Below, one piece after another: positions 3,747-37,582 of a DNA stretch of 41,537 nt (positions within the stretch are counted from its first letter, which is position 1; each line of letters starts with the position of its first letter). A program made the position numbers and the translations under genes. The notes below the pieces were generated by a model. That model had not been told where the DNA came from. It searched no databases and saw only the letters and a program-made list of their open reading frames with translations. The stretch spans positions 1-41,537 of the IMG/VR virus record IMGVR_UViG_3300036859_000304; one strand, given 5' to 3'. This stretch comes from a virus.

Positions 3747-5112
3747 TCAAGATGGCATTCTTAAGATTAACTATGAACCTCGTAAAGCGTTCATGGGATT
3801 CCATTCTAGGCGGACTCGTTTCGCTTGTATGGTCTGCCATCGCCGCGCAGGTAAGACTGTTGCGAGCATCAACGAGATTGTGCATCGCGCTATCTACTGT
3901 AAGAAAAAGCGACCGCGTTTCGCTTACCTCGCTCCTCTACTTAAGCAGGGTAAGAAAATCGCATGGGAATATCTTAAGGAATACACTCAAGGTTTAGAGA
4001 AAAAGAAACCTTCTGAGTCAGAACTTAGCATTATTCTTCGGCACAACGATGCCGAAATAGGAATTTATGGTGCAGACAATCCAGATGCTCTCCGCGGACA
4101 ATACTTTGACGGAGTTGTCCTTGACGAATATGGAGATATGTCCCCGTCTGTGTGGGGTAAAGTCGTATTTCCCACTCTATCTGACCGCAATGGCTGGGCG
4201 GTCTTTATCGGCACATTCAAAGGGAAGAACCACTTCTATCGTATCTTCCGTCGTTCACAGGGCCTTGACCTTCCCGAGGGATCAGATCCGGTAGTTTGGA
4301 AAGCTCGCTGGTATAATCTTCTCTTAAAGGCTTCTCAATCTGGAATCTTGCCTGCTGAGCAGTTAGAAATTGCTCGCGGTGAGATGGAAGATGAGGAATA
4401 TCGGCAAGAATATGAGTGTGATCCGAATGCTGTCGTCAAGGGGACGTACTATGCACGACTTATTGCTCAGCTTGAAGCAAAAAAGCAGATATTTACTGAG
4501 ATCGAATTCGAGCGGGATCAGCCCGTTGACGTTTATTTTGATCTTGGTTATGGGGATTCTACTGCTGCTTGGTTTATACAGCCTAGATTTGATGGTTTCG
4601 CAATCCTCGACTACCTAGAAGACCATGGAAAACCCCTCGACTTCTATTTCGACGAACTTGACAAGCGTGGCCACCGATATGGAACTATCTGGCTTCCTCA
4701 TGACGCCAAGGCACATACGTTGGCTGCAAAGAGGACTATCATTCAGCAGTTCTTGGACGCGAAATATCCGGTTCGTATCGGTCCCAAGCTGGCAGTCGAC
4801 GATGGGATCGCGGCCGTTAGGAAAATTTTGCCGAAATGCCACTTTCATGTACGATGCGAAGATGGAGTTGAGGCCCTTCGTGCGTACAAACGTGACTATG
4901 ATGACGAAAAAGATGTATTCAGAGACACTCCGACGCATGATTGGTCGTCCCATGGCTCAGACGCGTTTCGTTATTTCGCCGTTGTTGGAGCTGACATAGT
5001 TTCTGATCCTGATGAAGAAAATAAGATTGTAGTAGCGACGCCACAAATGTGCTTAGAAGAACTTTTTCAACATCGCGAGGCGCAGGTGCGTCGCATGAGG
5101 TTTCATAGATGA
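3739..5112 (+). CDS. terL: terminase large subunit (ATPase/nuclease)
   Basis: This 457-residue DNA-packaging motor cuts concatemers and pumps DNA into the prohead. The Walker A is CHRRAGKT with Lys39. The Walker B is GVVLDEYG at about residue 125-132, and a coupling-type IGTFKGKNHF follows. The RNase H-like nuclease domain begins with FDLGYGDST near residue 267, giving the first catalytic Asp, and a late Asp lies in SHGSDAFRYF. The length is typical. The GTG start overlaps the upstream gene by eight bases, and the stop overlaps the portal ATG (ATGA). The packaging type, headful or otherwise, cannot be read from this. Confidence 0.95.
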   Translation: MSDQDGILKINYEPRKAFMGFHSRRTRFACMVCHRRAGKTVASINEIVHRAIYCKKKRPRFAYLAPLLKQGKKIAWEYLKEYTQGLEKKKPSESELSIILRHNDAEIGIYGADNPDALRGQYFDGVVLDEYGDMSPSVWGKVVFPTLSDRNGWAVFIGTFKGKNHFYRIFRRSQGLDLPEGSDPVVWKARWYNLLLKASQSGILPAEQLEIARGEMEDEEYRQEYECDPNAVVKGTYYARLIAQLEAKKQIFTEIEFERDQPVDVYFDLGYGDSTAAWFIQPRFDGFAILDYLEDHGKPLDFYFDELDKRGHRYGTIWLPHDAKAHTLAAKRTIIQQFLDAKYPVRIGPKLAVDDGIAAVRKILPKCHFHVRCEDGVEALRAYKRDYDDEKDVFRDTPTHDWSSHGSDAFRYFAVVGADIVSDPDEENKIVVATPQMCLEELFQHREAQVRRMRFHR

Positions 5113-7340
5113 GCGCCGATACCCTTGATGCTGAGGAGAATACCGAATATTCGCCAAGGGGCGAATATGATCGTTGGCAGAAGGAAATTTCTGCTGCGAA
5201 AATTTGGTTTCGTAGATTTCATAAACGCGGCAAGCAGGTCAACAAAGCCTTTCTTGACGAGCACAAGCAGGATGATGAAGTTTTGATGGTGACGGTTAGT
5301 CGTCTCAATCTTTTTCATGCCAATATCGTAACCCTATGCGCGATGCTGTATGGACAAGTACCAAAAGTTGAGGTTGGTCGACGATTTGCTGACGCAGATG
5401 ACGACGTTGCTAGAGTCGCTGGACTCATGCTCACCAGAATTCTTAACAATGACATTGAAGTTGCAGGGGAAGATCTCGCTTCGGTATACCGAAGCTGTCT
5501 TCAGGACAGATTACTTCCCGGGCTTGGGACGGCGCGTCTCCAGTATCAATTTCTTGCCGACGAGGACGGGGTTGAGCACGTAGAAGCTACTGTAGGGCCA
5601 GATACAGAAAAAAGTATGTCTTCGGAAGAGGATAATGAGGAGTATGACGACTCTCAGCAGGTAATTACTGAAGAATGGGTGGACATTATCTACACCCATT
5701 GGGAAGATCAGCTTTGGTCCCCCGCCCGAACCTATCCAGAAGTCCGCTGGAAGGCGTATAGGTCGTATCTAACTAAGAAACAGATAAAGAAAAGGTTTCC
5801 GAAGGTAGATCTGCGAAAAGTTAGCTTTTCGCAGAAGGGTCCGCTTGGAAAAGATAAAGAAAGTCTTGAAAATGTCCCAGAAGAGGCTCAGGCCGAGGTT
5901 TGGGAGATTTGGGATAAGACAAATCTTTGTGTCTACTGGTGGCACGAGGGTTATGGTGAGATTTGGGACCATAAAGAGGATCCACTTGAGCTAGACGGCT
6001 TCTGGCCTGATCCGCCGCCATTGATCGCCAACGCTACGACGTCAAAGTACCTTCCCAAGTCTGATTATGACATGGCGAAGGACCTTTATCGTGAAGTTGA
6101 TGAACTTGAAACAAGAATCACGATGCTTACTCAGGCGTGTAAGCTTGTTGGAGTTTACGATCAGGCAAACAAGGGAATTCAGCGTATTTTCAATGAAGGT
6201 GTTGAAAATCAGCTTATCCCAGTGGATAATTGGGCCGCGTTCGCCGAAAAAGGCGGTCTTAAGGGTGCGGTGGAGTGGATTCCGCTTGCTGACGTCGCCA
6301 GCACCATCCAAATTCTTACACAGAAGCAAAACGACAAGATTCAGCAGCTTTATCAAGTCACAGGCATGAATGACGTGATGAGAGGCGCTGCGCAGCAGGA
6401 GGGAACTCCTGTTTCTGCCACAGAACGGAAAATTCAGGCGAACTATGGTTCTATTCGCATTGAAGCTCTGCAGAATGAGTTCGCGCGATGGGTAACTGAC
6501 ACACAGTGCATCAAGGCGGAAATTATCGGTAAGCACTACCAGCCGCAGAGTATCATACAACAGTCAAACATCATGGAGTCGCCAGACGGCCAGAACCAAG
6601 AATTGGTCATGGCTGCGGTCCAACTTATTCAAGATCCGTCTCGTTCGAAGTGGAAGATTTCTGTACGTCCGGAATCTCTTGCTATTGCTGACTATGCGCA
6701 GCTCAAGGCGGACAGAATTGAATTCATCATGGGTATGGCTCAGTTTCTTCAATCAGCGGCCCCGTTGGTTGAACAGCAGCCAAACTCAATGCCTACGCTC
6801 CTCAAACTCTTTAAGTGGAGTATGGCTGGCTTCAAGGGTTCCTCTGAAGCAGAGGCGATTCTAGACCAGCAAATTGCTCAGATAGAGAAGCAGCCTCCAC
6901 AGCAGAAGCCTGATCCTGAAGCTAAGAAAGCTCAGCTTGAGATGCAGAAAATGCAGGGCGAAATGCAGATGGCTAAGGAGGAGCATACTGCCAAGCTACG
7001 TCAGGATCAGTTGAAATTCCAGATGGAAATGCAGCAGATGCAACAGGAATTCATTCTAAAGATGAAAGAAATGCAGATGGAATTGCAGATGAAGCAACAA
7101 GAATTTCAGCTTGAGATTGCAAAGTTGAAAGCTACCCTTGGATTCCAGGTGAAAGAGCAAGCTATCAGCACCGAAATGAAAGCTGTGCAGCAGGCTAACG
7201 AAATACAAATGAAAGCTGAGGATAGAGAACATGAAGCGAACGTACAGATGGAATCAGGAGACGCGGAGCTTGCAAGAGATCGTGAAAGAGCAAAACTTCA
7301 TCCAGCAGGAAAGCCCGATGGTGATGCCGGATCTTCCTGA
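5109..7340 (+). CDS. portal protein
   Basis: This 743-residue protein immediately follows the large terminase and has the size of P22-type portals. It would form the dodecameric ring at the capsid vertex through which DNA passes. The N-terminal two thirds resemble portal wing and stem regions (LFHANIVTLCAMLYG, DVMRGAAQQEGTPVSATE). The last 150 residues are a long Gln/Met/Lys/Glu-rich coiled coil (many MQMQ and KMKEMQ repeats), consistent with a P22-like helical barrel. Its end overlaps the next gene by 110 bases. Confidence 0.9.
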   Translation: MSADTLDAEENTEYSPRGEYDRWQKEISAAKIWFRRFHKRGKQVNKAFLDEHKQDDEVLMVTVSRLNLFHANIVTLCAMLYGQVPKVEVGRRFADADDDVARVAGLMLTRILNNDIEVAGEDLASVYRSCLQDRLLPGLGTARLQYQFLADEDGVEHVEATVGPDTEKSMSSEEDNEEYDDSQQVITEEWVDIIYTHWEDQLWSPARTYPEVRWKAYRSYLTKKQIKKRFPKVDLRKVSFSQKGPLGKDKESLENVPEEAQAEVWEIWDKTNLCVYWWHEGYGEIWDHKEDPLELDGFWPDPPPLIANATTSKYLPKSDYDMAKDLYREVDELETRITMLTQACKLVGVYDQANKGIQRIFNEGVENQLIPVDNWAAFAEKGGLKGAVEWIPLADVASTIQILTQKQNDKIQQLYQVTGMNDVMRGAAQQEGTPVSATERKIQANYGSIRIEALQNEFARWVTDTQCIKAEIIGKHYQPQSIIQQSNIMESPDGQNQELVMAAVQLIQDPSRSKWKISVRPESLAIADYAQLKADRIEFIMGMAQFLQSAAPLVEQQPNSMPTLLKLFKWSMAGFKGSSEAEAILDQQIAQIEKQPPQQKPDPEAKKAQLEMQKMQGEMQMAKEEHTAKLRQDQLKFQMEMQQMQQEFILKMKEMQMELQMKQQEFQLEIAKLKATLGFQVKEQAISTEMKAVQQANEIQMKAEDREHEANVQMESGDAELARDRERAKLHPAGKPDGDAGSS

Positions 7341-22655: not shown

Positions 22656-23174
22656 TTAGAACAAACCGCGAGCCACCTGGAAGACGGTGTACCCTTTTTC
22701 CCTCCAAGCTTCGACAACACGAGAACGATCTTCAAATACAACGAGGGTATTGGAAGGAAAGTACCCGGATTCTTCTGCCCATCTGGGCTTCAAGATATTG
22801 TCATCAGTCCTGTCTTCTACATCTCTCAATCGTAACGAGTGATATGGAACCGCGTGTTGACGGAGCCATTTTTCCGTAGCATCTTTAACACTAGCATTAC
22901 GACCTGAAAGAATACGGATATTGTACCCATCTTCCCAGAGAAGACGGAGTATATCGATAACGACCCAATTTGGCTCGTCACTTGCACACTCGCTGAAATA
23001 TGAGGTCCAATCTCTTTTCCAGCCACAGTCGCAAAATCCTCTTCCATGGTTTTCTTCGATACTACAACCTTCCTTGTGTGGCGGGTGAAGATAATGATTT
23101 CTATAAATGTCCAAAGCGATGGTTCCGTCGAGGTCACAAATCACCGTATCTTTCTCTCTATCCATTGCCGACAT
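22656..23174 (-). CDS. HAD-superfamily phosphatase (polynucleotide 3'-phosphatase-like)
   Basis: This 172-residue protein carries the four HAD motifs: DLDGT (nucleophile and acid/base Asp), ILSGR (motif II Ser), a Lys in ILKPRW (motif III) and VVFEDRSRVVEAWRE (acidic motif IV). This arrangement matches the phosphatase half of T4 polynucleotide kinase, but the P-loop kinase half is absent. A small insert has four Cys/His residues (GCSIEENHGRGFCDCG). Substrate could be 3'-phosphates or nucleotides. The ATG at 23174 has GGAGG five bases upstream. It overlaps the thymidylate synthase gene by 34 bases. Confidence 0.75.
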   Translation of the reverse strand: MSAMDREKDTVICDLDGTIALDIYRNHYLHPPHKEGCSIEENHGRGFCDCGWKRDWTSYFSECASDEPNWVVIDILRLLWEDGYNIRILSGRNASVKDATEKWLRQHAVPYHSLRLRDVEDRTDDNILKPRWAEESGYFPSNTLVVFEDRSRVVEAWREKGYTVFQVARGLF

Positions 23175-24154
23175 GCTAGCCTCCAATCCTCTGCCTGAAT
23201 TTTTTCAACATAATCTAGTCCATCTCCAGTTTTACAAATTCTAACTCGGTACGCCATATACATCGGCGCAGCTACTTCATTAATCCACTTGGTCCTATAG
23301 ACCGTATTCGCTACTGGTTTCTTTTCATCAATAAAATCTTCACAATCTTGAAGAAGATTTTCTACTGTTTCCTTTCCGTTCAGAAGAGGATACGTATCAA
23401 TTGAATGATAAGGATCCTGACGAACTGGGCCCTTGGAAAAGTTCTGATATACATCAGTTTCAGTGTAGACATGAAGGTTGTTGGTGAATACACGGTAAGT
23501 CCCCATTTCCATGCCTGCGCCATGCGCCACCAGTTCATGGAGATATGTCATGTGGACAATATTCGCCCCTAACATACCCCACAAAAGGTCATTGCTGCGG
23601 TTACAGACAGTCATGTCTAATTGACGGTCACTCACCCCCTCATGTGCTCTGAAATAGATATGAGTATTACAAGGGCGATCTCTTACTTTCGCCCCTAGGT
23701 CCTCCGGAGGATCCCACATAGAAAGTACCACTTGTCTGCTTGAGGGATCTTCTTTCAAGAAAGCAATCGCAAGCTGGATTTGATCCAGGGAGTACCGCCC
23801 ATTCGTCCCGGGGACTTTCCAATGATCCCTCCACCGTTTTCCATACGCCCCATGTACGACACCATCGGCTTCTGCATAGTTCACATATGTAGAATTGAAC
23901 CTTGCAGGGAATCCAACGCGATTTCCTCCCGCTAGCATCCATATAGTCTCCATAACGTGGAAGAATGGATTCGCGTTTCTCTCCACGTCAAAGAGTACGC
24001 GTTCGTACGGCCGGCGTATTTCCAGCACTACAGGCTGAGGAATAGAAAGTACAGGCCCCGCACGAGACTGCTCCGGCTTAGCCCACGTTTTTATCGTCCA
24101 ATACGATTCTACGTACGCCTCCGGCGTGTTGTTAGCTAGGATACTAATCGTCAT
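23141..24154 (-). CDS. thymidylate synthase homologue (TS or dUMP hydroxymethylase)
   Basis: This 337-residue member of the thymidylate synthase fold transfers a one-carbon unit from methylene-tetrahydrofolate to C5 of dUMP. The catalytic Cys is Cys162 in RPCNTHIYF. The phosphate/base region is NRSNDLLWGMLGAN, with Arg186, Asp189 and Asn198. Asn198 is the residue that favours dUMP, whereas dCMP hydroxymethylases have Asp there. HGAYGKRWRDHW is the conserved 'YG..WR' loop. Family members in hypermodified-DNA phages make 5-hydroxymethyl-dUMP, and the neighbours point that way, but sequence alone cannot separate the two activities. The ATG at 24154 has GGAG seven bases upstream. Confidence 0.85.
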   Translation of the reverse strand: MTISILANNTPEAYVESYWTIKTWAKPEQSRAGPVLSIPQPVVLEIRRPYERVLFDVERNANPFFHVMETIWMLAGGNRVGFPARFNSTYVNYAEADGVVHGAYGKRWRDHWKVPGTNGRYSLDQIQLAIAFLKEDPSSRQVVLSMWDPPEDLGAKVRDRPCNTHIYFRAHEGVSDRQLDMTVCNRSNDLLWGMLGANIVHMTYLHELVAHGAGMEMGTYRVFTNNLHVYTETDVYQNFSKGPVRQDPYHSIDTYPLLNGKETVENLLQDCEDFIDEKKPVANTVYRTKWINEVAAPMYMAYRVRICKTGDGLDYVEKIQAEDWRLACRQWIERKIR

Positions 24155-24344
24155 AATCACTCTCCGTAAATCCGCCCCTTTCCTGAATACGGCAAAACTT
24201 CACAGCATCTTCAGCATTGAAATCTCTACAGGCTGGGTAGATAATCTTTGTTTCTAAGTTCGCATTCGGTCCGTAAACCGAAAGTCCGTGTTCTTCAAGG
24301 TATTCTATAACCTTCCGTATTGTACTTCCCCTAGGCTGTGCCAT
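24144..24344 (-). CDS. small protein inside the modification cassette
   Basis: This 66-residue protein contains GSTIRKVIEYLEEHGLSVYG and later NAEDAVKFCRIQER. The ATG at 24344 is chosen because GAGGGGG lies five bases upstream. The longer reading has no ribosome site. It overlaps both flanking genes by 11-14 bases, so it is translationally coupled to the thymidylate synthase homologue and the hypermodification-family gene. No family is recognised. A partner subunit role is possible. Confidence 0.55.
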   Translation of the reverse strand: MAQPRGSTIRKVIEYLEEHGLSVYGPNANLETKIIYPACRDFNAEDAVKFCRIQERGGFTESDYDD

Positions 24345-25191
24345 TATACCCCCTCTTAGATCGTCCGCTACCAGTAGAAACTCTGCAATACTTGTCAAAC
24401 TCACATAAACAATTCTGCAGATCCTGACTATGGACTGGGGGTACTCCAGCAGGCCAGTGAGATTCGGTATAGTATCTGATATCTCTAAAGTGGTCCATGA
24501 AGCTTCTCGTCGTTACCCGGTCCGGTTCCCCATATACGAACCACGAAGCACCTCGGAGACTCCCCGGACCCGGTTCTACGAAGGTGTAAAAATCGTGAAA
24601 ATTTGGATATCCAACCGTATTCTTCAGATCAGCTAGAACCTGCCCGGCGAGGAAAGACCCAATGCCCTCGACGCGTTGGAGCGCCCGACTGGCCACCCCT
24701 AGGTAACCCTGCCGGCACACATTCTTCAGGTGCTCGAGCTGCTTATACACGTCCTCGAGCACGTTCCTGCACAGGTAGGTGGCTTTAGGCATGGGTATGC
24801 CATGAGTCGTGATAACGTAGGCATTTCCCCAGACTTTCTGTCCGTTTCCCGCTATATGTTCCAGTAAGGAGAGAAGACTGTCAGGAGTATGCGCATAGCG
24901 ATAACCGACAAATCCCAAAGTTTCGGGCCAGTTGAGAAACCGAGAAAGAATGATGTTATACTCAAACATAGGATCGTCAACATGAGGCGAGTAATACTCA
25001 CGGATCCACTTCGTAACACGGTCGTCCTCACGGTGAACATTGCAGAAATACGTGGTTTGAAAGACCTTGTCTTCACTCCACGGCTTGGGAAGCCCCTGCT
25101 GCTTCTTTGTCCGGATTTGGTACCTTTCCCGGATCCAGTACATGAGCGCGTCCGGCGGCGTATAGCTGCTTCCATTGACAGGTATAGTCAT
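24331..25191 (-). CDS. hypermodified-thymine biosynthesis enzyme (5-hmdU kinase helical / aGPT-pyrophosphorylase family)
   Basis: This 286-residue protein has the family's block pattern: FCNVHREDDRVTKWI, LSRFLNWPETL, a helix-hairpin-helix-like GIGSFLAGQVLADLK, FVEPGPGSLRG, and DLQNCLCEFDKY near the C-terminus. This is the fold named in phage DNA-modification work both as the helical domain of 5-hydroxymethyl-dU DNA kinases and as alpha-glutamyl/putrescinyl-thymine pyrophosphorylases. Members act on hydroxymethyluracil already in DNA. No Walker A is present, so this copy is unlikely to be a kinase by itself. AAGGGG six bases before the ATG fixes the start. It overlaps the upstream gene by 119 bases. 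Confidence 0.8.
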   Translation of the reverse strand: MTIPVNGSSYTPPDALMYWIRERYQIRTKKQQGLPKPWSEDKVFQTTYFCNVHREDDRVTKWIREYYSPHVDDPMFEYNIILSRFLNWPETLGFVGYRYAHTPDSLLSLLEHIAGNGQKVWGNAYVITTHGIPMPKATYLCRNVLEDVYKQLEHLKNVCRQGYLGVASRALQRVEGIGSFLAGQVLADLKNTVGYPNFHDFYTFVEPGPGSLRGASWFVYGEPDRVTTRSFMDHFRDIRYYTESHWPAGVPPVHSQDLQNCLCEFDKYCRVSTGSGRSKRGYNGTA

Positions 25192-25972
25192 ATCTTACCC
25201 CTTGTTCATTTGCAAGCCACTTGTCTTTGGTTTTTCTGGGTACTACCTTCACGAACCCTGGGAAACGAGTAGCGAGATAAGTGACAGCCTCCCGTTGCAT
25301 TTCGTGAGTACGGTAGATTGAGCACCCCCCATTGGCTTGGCAGGGTCCGTGATCTTGGAAGAACGTTGTGAGGATCGCATTTGCTCGCCCACGTGCCAAG
25401 ATAGTACAATTGAGGACCACGTCAGCCAGAATTGGAAATTGATCCACCTTAACATGTCCAATTTTACTCCTATTCACACCTTGTAGACATATGATACGAC
25501 CATTGAGCACATAGGGTCTAGCCGCGTGCTGACCCATCTGCCGTGGGTGCACCCCCACCAGAGCGTATTCCTCGAGCAGGGTCTCAATTCCCGCCCACAT
25601 GTCCACTGTAGCCTCAGGGTCCTTGATAGATATGAGGCTGTTGGGGGCGAGTGGATCGGACCTAGAACTAAACACGAGATCATCATCAATGATAACAGCT
25701 TTGTCTTGCTTATGTTTTTCATAATCAAGTCTACCTGGAAGCCCGTCTAATATCCATTGAAATTTCTGGCTGTAGTTGGTTACGGTTTCTGGACCGAAAA
25801 GAACTTGAGGTCCTGTCCCGTCATATCGTATACCACCAAGATCTTTCTCGTAATAGTCAAGTACTTCGGCTCTCGGTACGACTAGGACAACTCGGTTTCT
25901 CCATGCCTTTGGTATCCACTTCAGTGTGCTGACCTTCCCCGCGCGCCCGCGTGACATAATATAGATGTTCAT
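25073..25972 (-). CDS. GT-A-type glycosyltransferase-like protein (TET/JBP-associated type)
   Basis: This 299-residue protein begins IYIMSRGRAGKVSTLKWIP followed by VVLVVPRAEVLDYY, the usual nucleotide-sugar side of a GT-A fold. It then has VIIDDDLVFSSR, a DxD-type metal and sugar-nucleotide site. Later CQANGGCSIYRTHEMQ adds possible metal-binding Cys residues. The 'RGR' start plus DDDL pattern is what I associate with the TAGT glycosyltransferases found beside DNA-base modification genes in phages. It would add a sugar to a hydroxymethylated base. The ATG overlaps the previous stop as ATGA. Confidence 0.6.
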   Translation of the reverse strand: MNIYIMSRGRAGKVSTLKWIPKAWRNRVVLVVPRAEVLDYYEKDLGGIRYDGTGPQVLFGPETVTNYSQKFQWILDGLPGRLDYEKHKQDKAVIIDDDLVFSSRSDPLAPNSLISIKDPEATVDMWAGIETLLEEYALVGVHPRQMGQHAARPYVLNGRIICLQGVNRSKIGHVKVDQFPILADVVLNCTILARGRANAILTTFFQDHGPCQANGGCSIYRTHEMQREAVTYLATRFPGFVKVVPRKTKDKWLANEQGVRYDYTCQWKQLYAAGRAHVLDPGKVPNPDKEAAGASQAVE

Positions 25973-26763: not shown

Positions 26764-27228
26764 TTAAGTCGCCGGCGGAGTGTTGGCCGAAGCGTCTGTC
26801 TTCGGCTCTTCCTTCTTTGGTTTCGTGCCTCCGGAAAGAGTCACGCTCCCGTCCTGAATGAAAAAGCGGAGCCAGCCACGCGGCGGATCTCCACCTTCCT
26901 TCTTGGTCGCACCGATCCATTCCTGCACCGTCTTGCCCACATGGGCCTTGACGGTGTCGTACCAATCCTTCCGCTGTCCTCGGTACTTGGTGCCCTTTTC
27001 CTCTACAACGGCAATCACGGCGTCGGCACGGAAGCCATAATCCTGTCGCGGTGCACGTTCTTTCTTGGGAGCATTCGGATCTGCGGGGGCCTTTTCGGCC
27101 TTTTCTTTCTTCGGCTTCGACTCTTTTGGAGTACTTGTAGTCGGGCTGTCTGGGGCTCCACCCGCCACGGCCTTGGATGCTTTCGCCGGCTTGCCCGGAG
27201 GCGTCAGGTCGGGAACTGCTGAGTTCAT
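26764..27228 (-). CDS. family A protein, copy 2
   Basis: This 154-residue protein has a Pro/Ala/Lys-rich disordered first half (for example PKKEKAEKAPADPNAPKK). The conserved domain follows: KYRGQRKDWYDTVKAH, GKTVQEWIGATKK, PPRGWLRFFIQDGS. A Lys/Pro/Thr tail ends it. It lacks the nine-residue insert before the Pro-Gly-Trp motif seen in copies 1 and 3 and is the most divergent copy. The ATG at 27228 has AAGGAAAG upstream. Its own promoter (27283-27311) and terminator (26710-26742) bound it. Function unknown. Confidence 0.85.
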   Translation of the reverse strand: MNSAVPDLTPPGKPAKASKAVAGGAPDSPTTSTPKESKPKKEKAEKAPADPNAPKKERAPRQDYGFRADAVIAVVEEKGTKYRGQRKDWYDTVKAHVGKTVQEWIGATKKEGGDPPRGWLRFFIQDGSVTLSGGTKPKKEEPKTDASANTPPAT

Positions 27229-27282
27229 CTTTCTTTCCTTCATAGTTGTTAACCTTGACCAGACCATTGGTCCAGTAGTGTG

Positions 27283-30038: not shown

Positions 30039-30340
30039 AGTGGCTCCACATGATGAAGACAAGAAATTTTCTGTTCTCTGATCTTGTAAATCTTATCTAC
30101 CTTGGCGTTTTCTACTGCGTGTAGAAATCCTGGGTATTGTCTTTCAAGCATGTCAAACATACACATTAGATCCCCACATTCAGAAATCAATTGATGAAAG
30201 TTGTCAATTCCTGGGAGTCTTGGGTGTTCACTTTTCAGCCCGTGGCGTAGAATTTTCCCTACGGCACGCACGATTTCTCCACATTCCTCAGAAAGAATGA
30301 AAAACATTTCTTGTTCAGCGCTGGTTAGTCTGTTGAACAT
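30035..30340 (-). CDS. MazG-like nucleotide pyrophosphohydrolase domain protein
   Basis: This 101-residue helical protein has LSEECGEIVRAVGKILRHG and later LISECGDLMCMFDML. This is the E-x-x-E...E-x-x-D metal-binding pattern of MazG/dUTPase-like all-alpha pyrophosphatases. It may remove an unwanted dNTP or a signalling nucleotide. The ATG at 30340 has GAAGAAGAG upstream. It overlaps the polymerase stop and the nuclease start. Confidence 0.65.
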   Translation of the reverse strand: MFNRLTSAEQEMFFILSEECGEIVRAVGKILRHGLKSEHPRLPGIDNFHQLISECGDLMCMFDMLERQYPGFLHAVENAKVDKIYKIREQKISCLHHVEPL

Positions 30341-32204
30341 ACTCTTCTTCTCCAATGATATCTCCCCAGTTGTCACCGATAAATCCTTCGCTGAGGAAAG
30401 GGACGTCAAATCTGCCACGTTCCATGCACTCCTTCAATTTCGCCATATGTTCAATAGCCGCTTCTCTAGGAGCGCTACCGTTGATCTCATCATGTACTGT
30501 TGCTAAGAAGATGCTTCCCGGCAACTTATTTTCCTCCCAATCTATACAGGCTTCCTTGGTTTGGTCTGCGGCGGAGCCTTGAATGAGGTAGTTGAGGAGT
30601 TTATATTCAAAACTCCTGAGACGCCCTTCAATGATTTTTGGAGGTTCCGTGTAGTATAGACGCCCACCCCACGTCCGAATCGGTAAACCCGCTCTTGCTC
30701 TTCCCTGTACGTCATCCATGAGTTCCTGAATTCCGGGCATAGCTGTGAGATAGGCACTCTTAATTCTTGCTGCTTCATCGTACGGTTGCCCGAGCTGGTG
30801 TGAGAGACCTGTAACTCCCGAACCATAGATAATTGAAAAGCCTGTGATTTTAATTGATTTTCTAGCATAGGAGACCTGAATCATGGCGAAAATAATATCC
30901 TTCGCCATTTGGTGAGGATCTAGCCCCGGATTTGCACGATATGCCTCGCACAAACTGCCGTCTTCAAAGTGGGCAAGAATACGAATTTCCTGAGAAGAGA
31001 AGTCTCGTTTGATCCATACATGTCCGTTGTCAGGTAGGCAATAGCGTCGCATAAGGGGCAACGGATGTAGTCCTTCGGGAACCAAGAGAGGAGTTCCATC
31101 GGAGTAAACGAACTCAGTGGGCACATTTTGAAAGTTAGGGGAGTCTGAAGATAGACGCCCGGTTTGAGTCCCCTTGTTGTCCGTGAGCTTACCCCCTTCA
31201 CGATATTGCTTAACTTGATTCCAATTCGGGTGAACACGGCCATCTTTCTCCGACATTGCCAGCCACGGACGCATGAATGTTTGCAGACAGGTCTTTAGAG
31301 CCGACCTATACTCGTGTAAAATCTTTACTTCGGGATTGTTTATCTGTAAATTTCCCTTCGCCTTAGACTTCTTACCCGTCTTGGTCAGTACCCACTCCGT
31401 AACAAACCCCTTTTGCTCAAGCGCGTCAGCGAACACGCCAGTGTCGTCAAGTGTCCCGCTAGAGACAGACAATGCTTGCTCCAAACGATCAGTAGAGACG
31501 GCCAGACAAGCTTCATACGCAGTGACGTGATGAGAAAGAGTGTCAGTATCAATTCGTATACCACGACGAGTAGCACGATGAAGATGAGGAAATAACCGGC
31601 GTTCTCTATCATAAGCTGCCTCCATTCCATCTGCTACGATGCGTGCATGAAGAAGATCAAATAATCTCCGAGTCCGCACAACGTCACCGATAGCATAAGG
31701 TCCGACCAGCTCAGCTGGAGCCTTTGATATAAAGGCTCCAGCAGTCTTAGGTGTAGCTTCGGGGATGTTTGCCAATATCCACGAATGAAGAGCATCCTGC
31801 TCAGACGGTTCCATCCCAAGGTAACGATCTGCAGAAGGCTTAAGAGAAAGTGTAGATGAATAGGGATCAGCAAGAAAAAGAAGATACATCGTATCATGTA
31901 CTCTCTCCCAGTCATTCCACGGCCAATTGTCTACTCCATCCAAGAAATATTCTGCAGCGACTGTAACATCAAATCCAGCGTGGTGGAAAAGCAATGGAGT
32001 ATTTCCGTGCCATCTAACGATTTTACGTAGATACTCACGGCATTCTTCCCATGTACAGTTATTTCCACTCGGGTGCCCAAATCCAAGATAGGCTGGTTCT
32101 TGTCCAGGCACCCAGACAGCAAGACCAACAGGTCGTGGAGGGTTAACAATGGGATTTCCTACAATGGCTTCAGTTTCGAAGTCCAACGTAATTGGTTCGA
32201 TCAT
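30315..32204 (-). CDS. family A DNA polymerase with 3'-5' exonuclease
   Basis: This 629-residue replicative polymerase has the proofreading domain with TLDFETEAI (motif I), FHHAGFDVTVAAEYF (II) and YAIGDVVRTRRLF (III). Polymerase motifs are TGRLSSDSPNFQNVP, then motif A IKRDFSSQEIRILAHF near residue 400, motif B RKSIKITGFSIIYG near 450, and motif C ATVHDEI near 570. All catalytic carboxylates are present. Phe stands at the position that in Pol I discriminates against dideoxynucleotides. There is no N-terminal 5'-nuclease. AAGGGG five bases before the ATG fixes the start. A structured leader precedes it. Confidence 0.95.
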   Translation of the reverse strand: MIEPITLDFETEAIVGNPIVNPPRPVGLAVWVPGQEPAYLGFGHPSGNNCTWEECREYLRKIVRWHGNTPLLFHHAGFDVTVAAEYFLDGVDNWPWNDWERVHDTMYLLFLADPYSSTLSLKPSADRYLGMEPSEQDALHSWILANIPEATPKTAGAFISKAPAELVGPYAIGDVVRTRRLFDLLHARIVADGMEAAYDRERRLFPHLHRATRRGIRIDTDTLSHHVTAYEACLAVSTDRLEQALSVSSGTLDDTGVFADALEQKGFVTEWVLTKTGKKSKAKGNLQINNPEVKILHEYRSALKTCLQTFMRPWLAMSEKDGRVHPNWNQVKQYREGGKLTDNKGTQTGRLSSDSPNFQNVPTEFVYSDGTPLLVPEGLHPLPLMRRYCLPDNGHVWIKRDFSSQEIRILAHFEDGSLCEAYRANPGLDPHQMAKDIIFAMIQVSYARKSIKITGFSIIYGSGVTGLSHQLGQPYDEAARIKSAYLTAMPGIQELMDDVQGRARAGLPIRTWGGRLYYTEPPKIIEGRLRSFEYKLLNYLIQGSAADQTKEACIDWEENKLPGSIFLATVHDEINGSAPREAAIEHMAKLKECMERGRFDVPFLSEGFIGDNWGDIIGEEEYVQQTNQR

Positions 32205-32303: not shown

Positions 32304-32531
32304 TTATCGCGTAATGTGCTTCACCGCCCACATCACGGCTTCTTCAATTTTAGTCTTTGCGATCGACAATTCCCTACTTTGTCCAAGGCTTTCCACATAT
32401 TCGTGGAAAGCCAGTCCGTCATCCTTCAGCTTCTGTATCGCAGCTTTTTCAATATCCGAAAGGACACGATAGGCATGACGCATCACGTTATTGACAGTTC
32501 GTTCATCGCTCTTTGAATCTACACTTGACAT
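32304..32531 (-). CDS. Acb2/Tad1-hairpin-like anti-CBASS protein
   Basis: This 75-residue helical protein has LSDIEKAAIQKLKDDGLAF followed by SLGQSRELSIAKTKIEEAV and MWAVKHIT. This helix-hairpin pattern, with a conserved 'SREls.AkTKiEEAvMWa.khI', is that of the Acb2 family (Acb2_Tad1 hairpin). Acb2 hexamers soak up cyclic di- and trinucleotides made by CBASS immune systems. The ATG overlaps the previous stop as TAATG. If correct, the gene protects the phage from cyclic-nucleotide signalling defence. The assignment rests on the motif only. Confidence 0.65.
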   Translation of the reverse strand: MSSVDSKSDERTVNNVMRHAYRVLSDIEKAAIQKLKDDGLAFHEYVESLGQSRELSIAKTKIEEAVMWAVKHITR

Positions 32532-33280
32532 TAGAATTTCCTCGCTTTACCTTCCGCCGGAGCCTTCATCGGGTCACTGCCCGGCACCGTAAGACCTGAA
32601 GAGTCAAACGGAGTGAGAAGAATTTCCTCTGCCTGAGCGATCCTTCCATGGAGCTGACCCAAGAACTCATCGGGAATTTGAGTTACTGTCTTAAACAGAA
32701 CCTCAAACTGGTTGACCGGATGCGGTCTTGCACTGATATTCGCTACCGCTGCCCACGGAGGGATTCCATATTCAGCAGAAAGAGCGTTAACCCAGACTCC
32801 CCAATGTTTAACAGACGTGACAGGTACCGTAAGAACTGCAAGTTCTGCTGTCTTGAAGTTCCCATCCTTGAGTACCGTAGCCGGTAGAAGTGCAAGCCGT
32901 CGGCGCTCCTTACATGCTTTATGATTCTTTCCAGGTCTTTTGGGATTGGGGGACCAATGGAAGTTCGTACAAAGGTCACATCTTTCTGCCTGTCTAGATA
33001 CAGCCTTATCAGAAGGGACCATTTCTTCCCCTGTGATCGACAGGGAAAAACAGTCTGGTGGACTGATGTTGTTTGGGTCAAAGGGCTTTGTGTCATATCG
33101 CTGCTCAGTACAAGATGCGATAATGATGCAGTCCAGATTGTTTCCAGGGATCTGCTGTCCCTGATACATCATCACTCCGGCACGGAGTCCAATCTGGCTG
33201 GTGGAGGGTCTTTCTCTGCTGGCAATCTCCTTAGCGTCTTTCGCTAATTCTTCTTTCCAATTCGTTACTTCTGTGCCCAT
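32531..33280 (-). CDS. ssDNA-binding-like replication protein with zinc ribbon
   Basis: This 249-residue protein contains a metal-binding segment ERCDLCTNFHW, then GKNHKACKERRRLALLP. This 'C..C......GK.kaCk..RRLal' arrangement recurs in phage proteins encoded near DNA polymerase and is taken to be an ssDNA-binding or recombination mediator. The rest is beta-rich (AELAVLTVPVTSVKHW) with a charged C-terminal tail. It lies two genes upstream of the polymerase. A strong terminator precedes it, so an unseen promoter or read-through must drive it. Confidence 0.5.
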   Translation of the reverse strand: MGTEVTNWKEELAKDAKEIASRERPSTSQIGLRAGVMMYQGQQIPGNNLDCIIIASCTEQRYDTKPFDPNNISPPDCFSLSITGEEMVPSDKAVSRQAERCDLCTNFHWSPNPKRPGKNHKACKERRRLALLPATVLKDGNFKTAELAVLTVPVTSVKHWGVWVNALSAEYGIPPWAAVANISARPHPVNQFEVLFKTVTQIPDEFLGQLHGRIAQAEEILLTPFDSSGLTVPGSDPMKAPAEGKARKF

Positions 33281-33299: not shown

Positions 33300-33327
33300 A
33301 AGACCGTGAGGGAAGTCCCACGGTCTT
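33300..33327 (-). terminator. intrinsic terminator upstream of the SSB-like gene
   Basis: AAGACCGTG (33300-33308) pairs with CACGGTCTT (33319-33327). Inner GGGA/TCCC bases extend the stem. On the minus strand a six-T run follows directly (CGGTCTTTTTTATAGG). It lies 18 bases after the stop of the gene at 33346 and should end that transcript efficiently. Confidence 0.85.
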
Positions 33328-34599: not shown

Positions 34600-34627
34600 A
34601 AGGGGTACGCCGCCCGGCGTACCCCTT
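34600..34627 (-). terminator. intrinsic terminator between two small leftward genes
   Basis: AAGGGGTACGCCG (34600-34612) and CGGCGTACCCCTT (34615-34627) form a perfect 13-bp inverted repeat with only two bases between the arms, so the real loop opens a few pairs. On the minus strand TTCTTTC follows. It lies six bases after the stop at 34634. Confidence 0.75.
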
Positions 34628-34997: not shown

Positions 34998-35068
34998 AGA
35001 CCCGAACGTCCAAGGGGTAGAACGTTCGGGTCTAGGGGAGGCGGTGACCAAGTGACCGGAATCACCGC
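34998..35068. promoter_or_regulatory. two hairpins in the primase-helicase leader
   Basis: AGACCCGAACGT (34998-35009) and ACGTTCGGGTCT (35022-35033) form a perfect 12-bp stem. GCGGTGA (35041-35047) pairs with TCACCGC (35062-35068). The first stem is followed by a T-run only on the minus strand (TCTTTTCATTTGG), so as a terminator it points leftward, although no leftward gene lies upstream of it. On the plus strand both stems sit in the 5' leader and may regulate the primase-helicase. Confidence 0.6.
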
Positions 35069-37156: not shown

Positions 37157-37495
37157 TTACGGTTGGAGAGACATTACACCTTGACGCACGAAAAACCTCA
37201 CCCACCCACTCGGCGGTTCAGCCGCACCGTTCTTGGTACGTGACGGAGGGTTCTCCTTCACGCTGTCCAGAAACTCGCTTTCTGGCTTGCCGTCGTATTC
37301 CTTGATCCGCTGGTACCACGCCTCACGGGCCGTCTTGCCTCGGTAAGTCGCGTCCTTCTTGAGTACCTTGATTTTCTGTGGCCGAGCCGTCGCGGGGGCA
37401 GCCTCTGCTTTCACCTCCGACTTGCTCGCACTTGCAGCGTTCGCCGCCTTAGTCTTCGTTTCCACGTTCTTTGTCACTTTCTTACGGGGTTTCAC
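37157..37495 (-). CDS. family A protein, copy 3
   Basis: This 112-residue protein has a Lys/Ala/Thr-rich tail (KAANAASASKSEVKAEAAP) followed by the shared domain: TYRGKTAREAWYQRIKEYDG, KPESEFLDSVKENPP, and EPPSGWVRFFVRQGV at the end. It is closest to copy 1, sharing the spacer before the Pro-Ser-Gly-Trp motif. The GTG at 37495 is chosen because GGAGG lies five bases upstream. It is monocistronic, with a promoter at 37583-37611 and the strong terminator at 37112-37146. Function unknown. Confidence 0.85.
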   Translation of the reverse strand: MKPRKKVTKNVETKTKAANAASASKSEVKAEAAPATARPQKIKVLKKDATYRGKTAREAWYQRIKEYDGKPESEFLDSVKENPPSRTKNGAAEPPSGWVRFFVRQGVMSLQP

Positions 37496-37582
37496 AATTA
37501 CCTCCAATTCTGCCTTGCGCGGCAGTCATACATCACCCCCGGTACATCGTTGCTCACCAGCTTCTGGGGCCGGCGTAGGCCA

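Follow-up and report, generated by a model that had tools for sequence, protein, structure and literature searches.

A hairpin protein of the Acb2 family encoded beside a phage DNA polymerase: a mobile accessory gene and probable CBASS sponge

In the virus record IMGVR_UViG_3300036859_000304, a gene for a protein of only 75 residues lies between a DNA polymerase gene and the upstream partner of the latter. Is the product a component of the replication machinery, or does it act against a host defence, and if so, against which signal? The analysis covered the complete record of 41,537 nt, hereafter the window. The ORF proposed in the first-pass annotation, with both motifs quoted there, is exactly in place (Table 1); its product is MSSVDSKSDERTVNNVMRHAYRVLSDIEKAAIQKLKDDGLAFHEYVESLGQSRELSIAKTKIEEAVMWAVKHITR. 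It is the only copy of the PF24729 family in the record. The gene is indeed coupled to its upstream neighbour, as had been claimed, by overlapping stop and start codons with a ribosome-site-like GAGGAA directly ahead, and it does lie just upstream of the polymerase, which starts 99 bp further on and has its own AAGGGG sequence ahead of it. The 99-base gap folds no better than its shuffles (z -0.41). Scans of the window for Rfam families, tRNAs, and promoters yielded nothing useful, and neither did PADLOC and NCBIfam searches with the gene itself. Upstream of the replication genes, the minus strand carries three strong terminator-like hairpins of 11-14 pairs (33300-33327, 34600-34627, and 34998-35033).

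Table 1. Features of the acb2-like locus, in window coordinates
Feature	Position	Strand	Basis
acb2-like gene, 75 aa	32304..32531	-	ORF; PF24729 E=1.9e-17; best Foldseek match is Acb2
Acb2/Tad1 hairpin domain, residues 20-75, helices 26-48 and 53-74	32307..32474	-	Pfam match from residue 20; AlphaFold
TAATG stop/start overlap of the acb2-like gene with the upstream gene	32529..32533	-	sequence
Family A DNA polymerase, downstream neighbour	30315..32204	-	PF00476 E=4.7e-50
Codon of Y21, equivalent to T4 Acb2 Tyr8	32469..32471	-	HMMER alignment to PaP2 Acb2
Codon of K36, 15 residues after Y21 as in PaP2 Acb2 and Vs.4	32424..32426	-	aligned to Lys of PaP2 Acb2
N-terminal branch motif R11-H19 (R-T-V-N-N-V-M-R-H), just before Y21	32475..32501	-	alignment
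Upstream gene, 249 aa, earlier called SSB-like	32531..33280	-	phrog_27714, unknown function

The upstream protein had been called SSB-like. It matches no known single-strand-binding family and has no match of any kind in Pfam, NCBIfam, or PDB, only PHROGs of unknown function. The name is a plausible guess in view of the gene's position and a conserved Cys-containing stretch, with no profile support, and we retain it here as a label. The gene is a recurrent partner of the polymerase, which it also adjoins in four other records (L163, L165, L166, and L167).

The 75-residue protein is a clear member of the Acb2/Tad1 family, of the Acb2 type. The HMM check suggested in the first-pass annotation, run with hmmscan against PF24729 (Acb2/Tad1 hairpin), gave 63.7 bits over model positions 2-58 of 58, more than twice the curated cut-off of 27 bits. 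The AlphaFold monomer is a two-helix hairpin with a mean pLDDT of 84, exceeding 90 in blocks from residue 21 on; as in Acb2, there is no extra domain beside the two long antiparallel helices. Residues 1-20, the region where Acb2 has a short N-terminal helix, are modelled at a pLDDT of about 50. When the model was compared with 350,542 PDB chains using Foldseek, the best eight matches were all Acb2 (probability 0.98-1.00), the first being T4 Vs.4 with cGAMP. These matches have weak E-values, between 0.1 and 0.5, which is not surprising for a protein of two helices. Matches of the single sequence to individual solved Acb2 proteins are also weak on their own (E about 0.02). A profile built from 51 relatives, in turn, returned only Acb2 or Tad1 entries as its first nine matches among PDB sequences, including Acb2 homolog 43 (9ptq, E=0.0034), T4 Vs.4 (7uq2, 0.0051), PaP2 Acb2 p26 (0.033), and Tad1 (0.088). 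Hence the family assignment made earlier is confirmed by profile, fold, and a key residue.

Two residues of the Acb2 pocket are retained. The lysine, K36, is present in all 138 homologues; we take its counterpart in PaMx33 Acb2 to be K26, a residue of the binding pocket. The tyrosine, Y21, is kept in 134 of the 138. It is aligned to the Tyr of PaP2 Acb2 and matches Tyr8 of Vs.4 in position; Vs.4 has been named T4 Acb2 (PMC12657218). In the T4 protein, the Y8A mutation is reported to abolish or disrupt cyclic dinucleotide binding, and Phe82 stacks on the base (PMC12657218). An ungapped alignment of the second helix places T74 at the position of Phe82, with Thr in 136 of the 138 homologues, and therefore the pocket is not identical to that of T4 Acb2. 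Still, Phe82 is a feature of T4 Acb2 and, as far as shown, does not define the family, so that T74 does not count against membership. Ahead of Y21, residues R11, N14, N15, R18, and H19 do not vary among the 51 aligned sequences, and each is conserved in at least 95% of about 137 homologues; they lie outside the Pfam model, whose match begins at residue 20. These proteins form a new branch, mainly alphaproteobacterial, in which the R-x2-NN-x2-RH-x-Y motif at the N-terminus hardly varies and may give the ligand pocket a different shape.

Like T4 Vs.4 (PDB 7uq2) and PaP2/PaMx33 p26 (PDB 8h2j, 8ixz), the protein is a compact single-domain phage protein with a helical hairpin, a Tyr ahead of the first long helix and, 15 residues on, a Lys within it; with Vs.4 it also shares A-K-T-K...M-W-A in the second helix. 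Unlike these Acb2 proteins, it has a longer, highly conserved stretch ahead of the Tyr, Thr74 in place of Phe82 of T4, and a shorter inter-helix part, and its branch is found mainly in alphaproteobacterial phages. Acb2 homolog 43, the top solved structure in the profile search, is similarly short and has the same R-E-x-S...T-K-x-E-E-A core, although identity is about 45% and only over the matched 31 residues. Tad1 (Thoeris anti-defence 1, PDB 7uav, 8kbf) resembles our protein in its C-terminal hairpin and its S-R-E...E-E-A-x-M-W motif, but its chains of 123-138 residues include an N-terminal beta domain that is missing here, the AlphaFold model containing no strands. Finally, small hairpin proteins of Paenibacillus, Mycobacterium, and Gordonia phages share the core motif and have an N-N...Y-H stretch at the equivalent place (NNFxYHxPK...SREKSLAxTKLEEAVMWANASIARN), while being far more distant (35-40% identity or the core only) and having a different linker. 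Such a related 61-residue protein occurs in 292 phage records; among those listed (H91-H115, phages of these three host genera), it is annotated as hypothetical in nearly all and as phosphomannomutase in a few; these proteins are likely to be unrecognised sponges of the Acb2/Tad1 type.

Relatives of the 75-residue protein number 256 in IMG/VR, the best 80 being 64-84% identical to it, and 74 in contigs of bacterial genomes, mostly from alphaproteobacteria with distant ones in Firmicutes. This extends the counter-defence family to a large, mainly alphaproteobacterial set of phages, the nearest annotated of which list the gene as hypothetical. The gene is under purifying selection, with a median dN/dS of 0.22 over 2450 pairs and values of 0.05-0.22 in the six non-saturated pairs that involve the copy in the window. 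In two relatives (L020 and L050, from about 5001-5222 onward), the frame continues past the hairpin through a segment resembling a membrane helix and reaches 230-242 aa, which may reflect the loss of a stop codon or fusion to a holin-like protein. Seven others (L119, L126, L128, L129, L130, L136, and L146, about 6001-6290) have an insertion in the inter-helix loop beside an otherwise conserved core.

Genes for the CBASS nucleotidyltransferase (CD-NTase) are enriched in genomes that carry the acb2-like gene in prophages. PF18144 was found in 10 of 37 carriers as compared to 24 of 294 order-level controls (Fisher p=0.0017), the carriers coming from mixed orders and the controls from one, and PF18144 not covering all CD-NTases. 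Three carriers with a PF18144 match were removed from the control sample; two that had none (G001 and G011) stayed in it, which hardly altered the result. The difference persists when the carriers are restricted to the same order, as judged from record titles (5/20, p=0.027), and also when all carriers are set against same-order genomes that have at least two phage capsid genes (10/37 vs. 4/67, p=0.005). The latter comparison was limited to genomes with at least two capsid copies, because in the control order this prophage marker is, we assume, probably confounded by capsids of gene-transfer agents. The type I restriction gene HsdR shows no difference (14/37 carriers, 90/295 controls, p=0.35). 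A class-level control (3/190) was set aside in favour of the order-level one, as it contained many small genomes. The majority of carriers (27/37) have no PF18144 match. As the sample is small, the species are related, the controls were not screened for the gene, and one CD-NTase family was considered, we regard the link to CBASS as suggestive.

Acb2 inhibits CBASS and binds cyclic di- and trinucleotides, which it leaves uncleaved; it is a hexamer in the solved structures. Homology to Acb2 and the suggestive co-occurrence with CD-NTases make a sponge directed against host CBASS the best explanation for our protein, and a very probable one. Several copies of the hairpin would most likely assemble, by analogy with the Acb2 hexamer, and bind cyclic oligonucleotides produced by the host CBASS; the suicide effector would then stay off and the phage would complete its cycle. 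In the window, such an accessory counter-defence gene would have entered between the polymerase gene and the SSB-like gene, to which it is translationally coupled. However, its unusually low divergence is atypical for an arms-race gene and counts against the sponge explanation.

The first-pass annotation had placed the gene in the replication operon and had read early expression from its position. Neither claim is supported by comparison with phages in which the upstream gene and the polymerase of the window are both represented. In the nearest sister (L160, on the same contig as L031; polymerase 77-81% identical), the gene is at the same place as in the window, whereas in L066 and L052 it precedes the SSB-like gene, that is, lies on its other side. 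Four sister phages keep the SSB-like and polymerase pair without any PF24729 match in their records, namely, L163, the isolate ctUtU524, Pseudoxanthomonas phage PW916, and Stenotrophomonas phage AXL_3, the last two being close relatives of each other and hence not independent; two records found via the SSB-like gene alone (L161 and L162) also have none. A core replication protein aiding the SSB-like protein or the polymerase would agree with the translational coupling and with the neighbourhood in the window and in L031/L160, but persistence of the pair in sisters without the gene, its shifted place in L052 and L066, and the absence of an adjoining polymerase in most relatives leave this role with almost no probability, and we reject it. 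Among relatives, the upstream neighbours belong to 97 different PHROG families, the commonest being portal (9/111), and the downstream ones to 73, with some spurious ORFs included by the simple ORF caller. Adjoining genes encode portal, methyltransferase, recombination, SSB, polymerase, or unknown proteins, and in Sinorhizobium phage Aussie the gene lies between those for the head-tail adaptor and stopper. As neighbours and modules vary, late structural ones included, position is in general no guide to early expression. The acb2-like gene is thus a mobile accessory gene within the replication genes and not part of them. In L066 and L052 it is 71-73% identical to the copy in the window, as compared to 41-55% for the polymerase and 28-35% for the SSB-like gene, which would reflect either recent transfer or stronger constraint. 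Together with its conserved N-terminal motif, such a conserved putative sponge among diverged neighbours raises the question of which nucleotide signal of the host bacteria stays so constant.

Location of some relatives in structural modules, just after portal or between the adaptor and the stopper, together with the very slight divergence of the gene under strong purifying selection, could also point to a small assembly or regulatory protein that shares the fold and has no role in counter-defence. This is very improbable, though less so than a replication role: varied neighbours, including methyltransferase, recombination, SSB, and polymerase genes, and absence from sister phages mean that the gene has no fixed partner, and the nucleotide-binding Tyr is retained. 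Alternatively, the protein may be a sponge with a shifted target, in which the N-terminal R-x2-NN-x2-RH segment reshapes the pocket for mainly some signal other than that of CBASS, such as gcADPR or related Thoeris signals, or cyclic tri- or tetra-adenylate of type III CRISPR. The five nearly invariant polar or charged positions ahead of the binding Tyr, outside the Pfam model, and the replacement of Phe82 by Thr74 would fit this, and Acb2 and Tad1 together bind CDNs, CTNs, and gcADPR (PMC12043709). On the other hand, both pocket residues of Acb2, Tyr and Lys, are retained, the N-terminal beta domain of Tad1 is missing, and CD-NTases are enriched in carriers; a shifted target therefore seems unlikely. 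A further reading, to which we give slightly more but still little credence, is that this distinct, very conserved branch builds from its R-x2-NN-x2-RH-x-Y motif a new pocket for a nucleotide signal not bound by known Acb2, and that it travels between replication and structural modules as a self-contained cassette.

Apart from the acb2-like sponge, which remains our preferred reading, the window contains a run of DNA base hypermodification genes (22656-25972, minus strand). These encode a thymidylate synthase homologue (PF00303) that may be a dUMP hydroxymethylase, a protein with the helical domain of 5-hmdU DNA kinase (PF18723, E=3e-37), a protein matching phrog_842, the beta-glucosyl-HMC-alpha-glucosyltransferase PHROG, and a PNKP-type phosphatase. 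They probably make modified thymine in the phage DNA and would provide a second layer of counter-defence. In addition, two minus-strand genes (26764-27267 and 37157-37507) encode apparent paralogues with a similar Ala/Lys-rich start and no Pfam match, which share a C-terminal stretch (YRGQRKDWYDTVKAHVGK and YRGKTAREAWYQRIKEYDGK, respectively).
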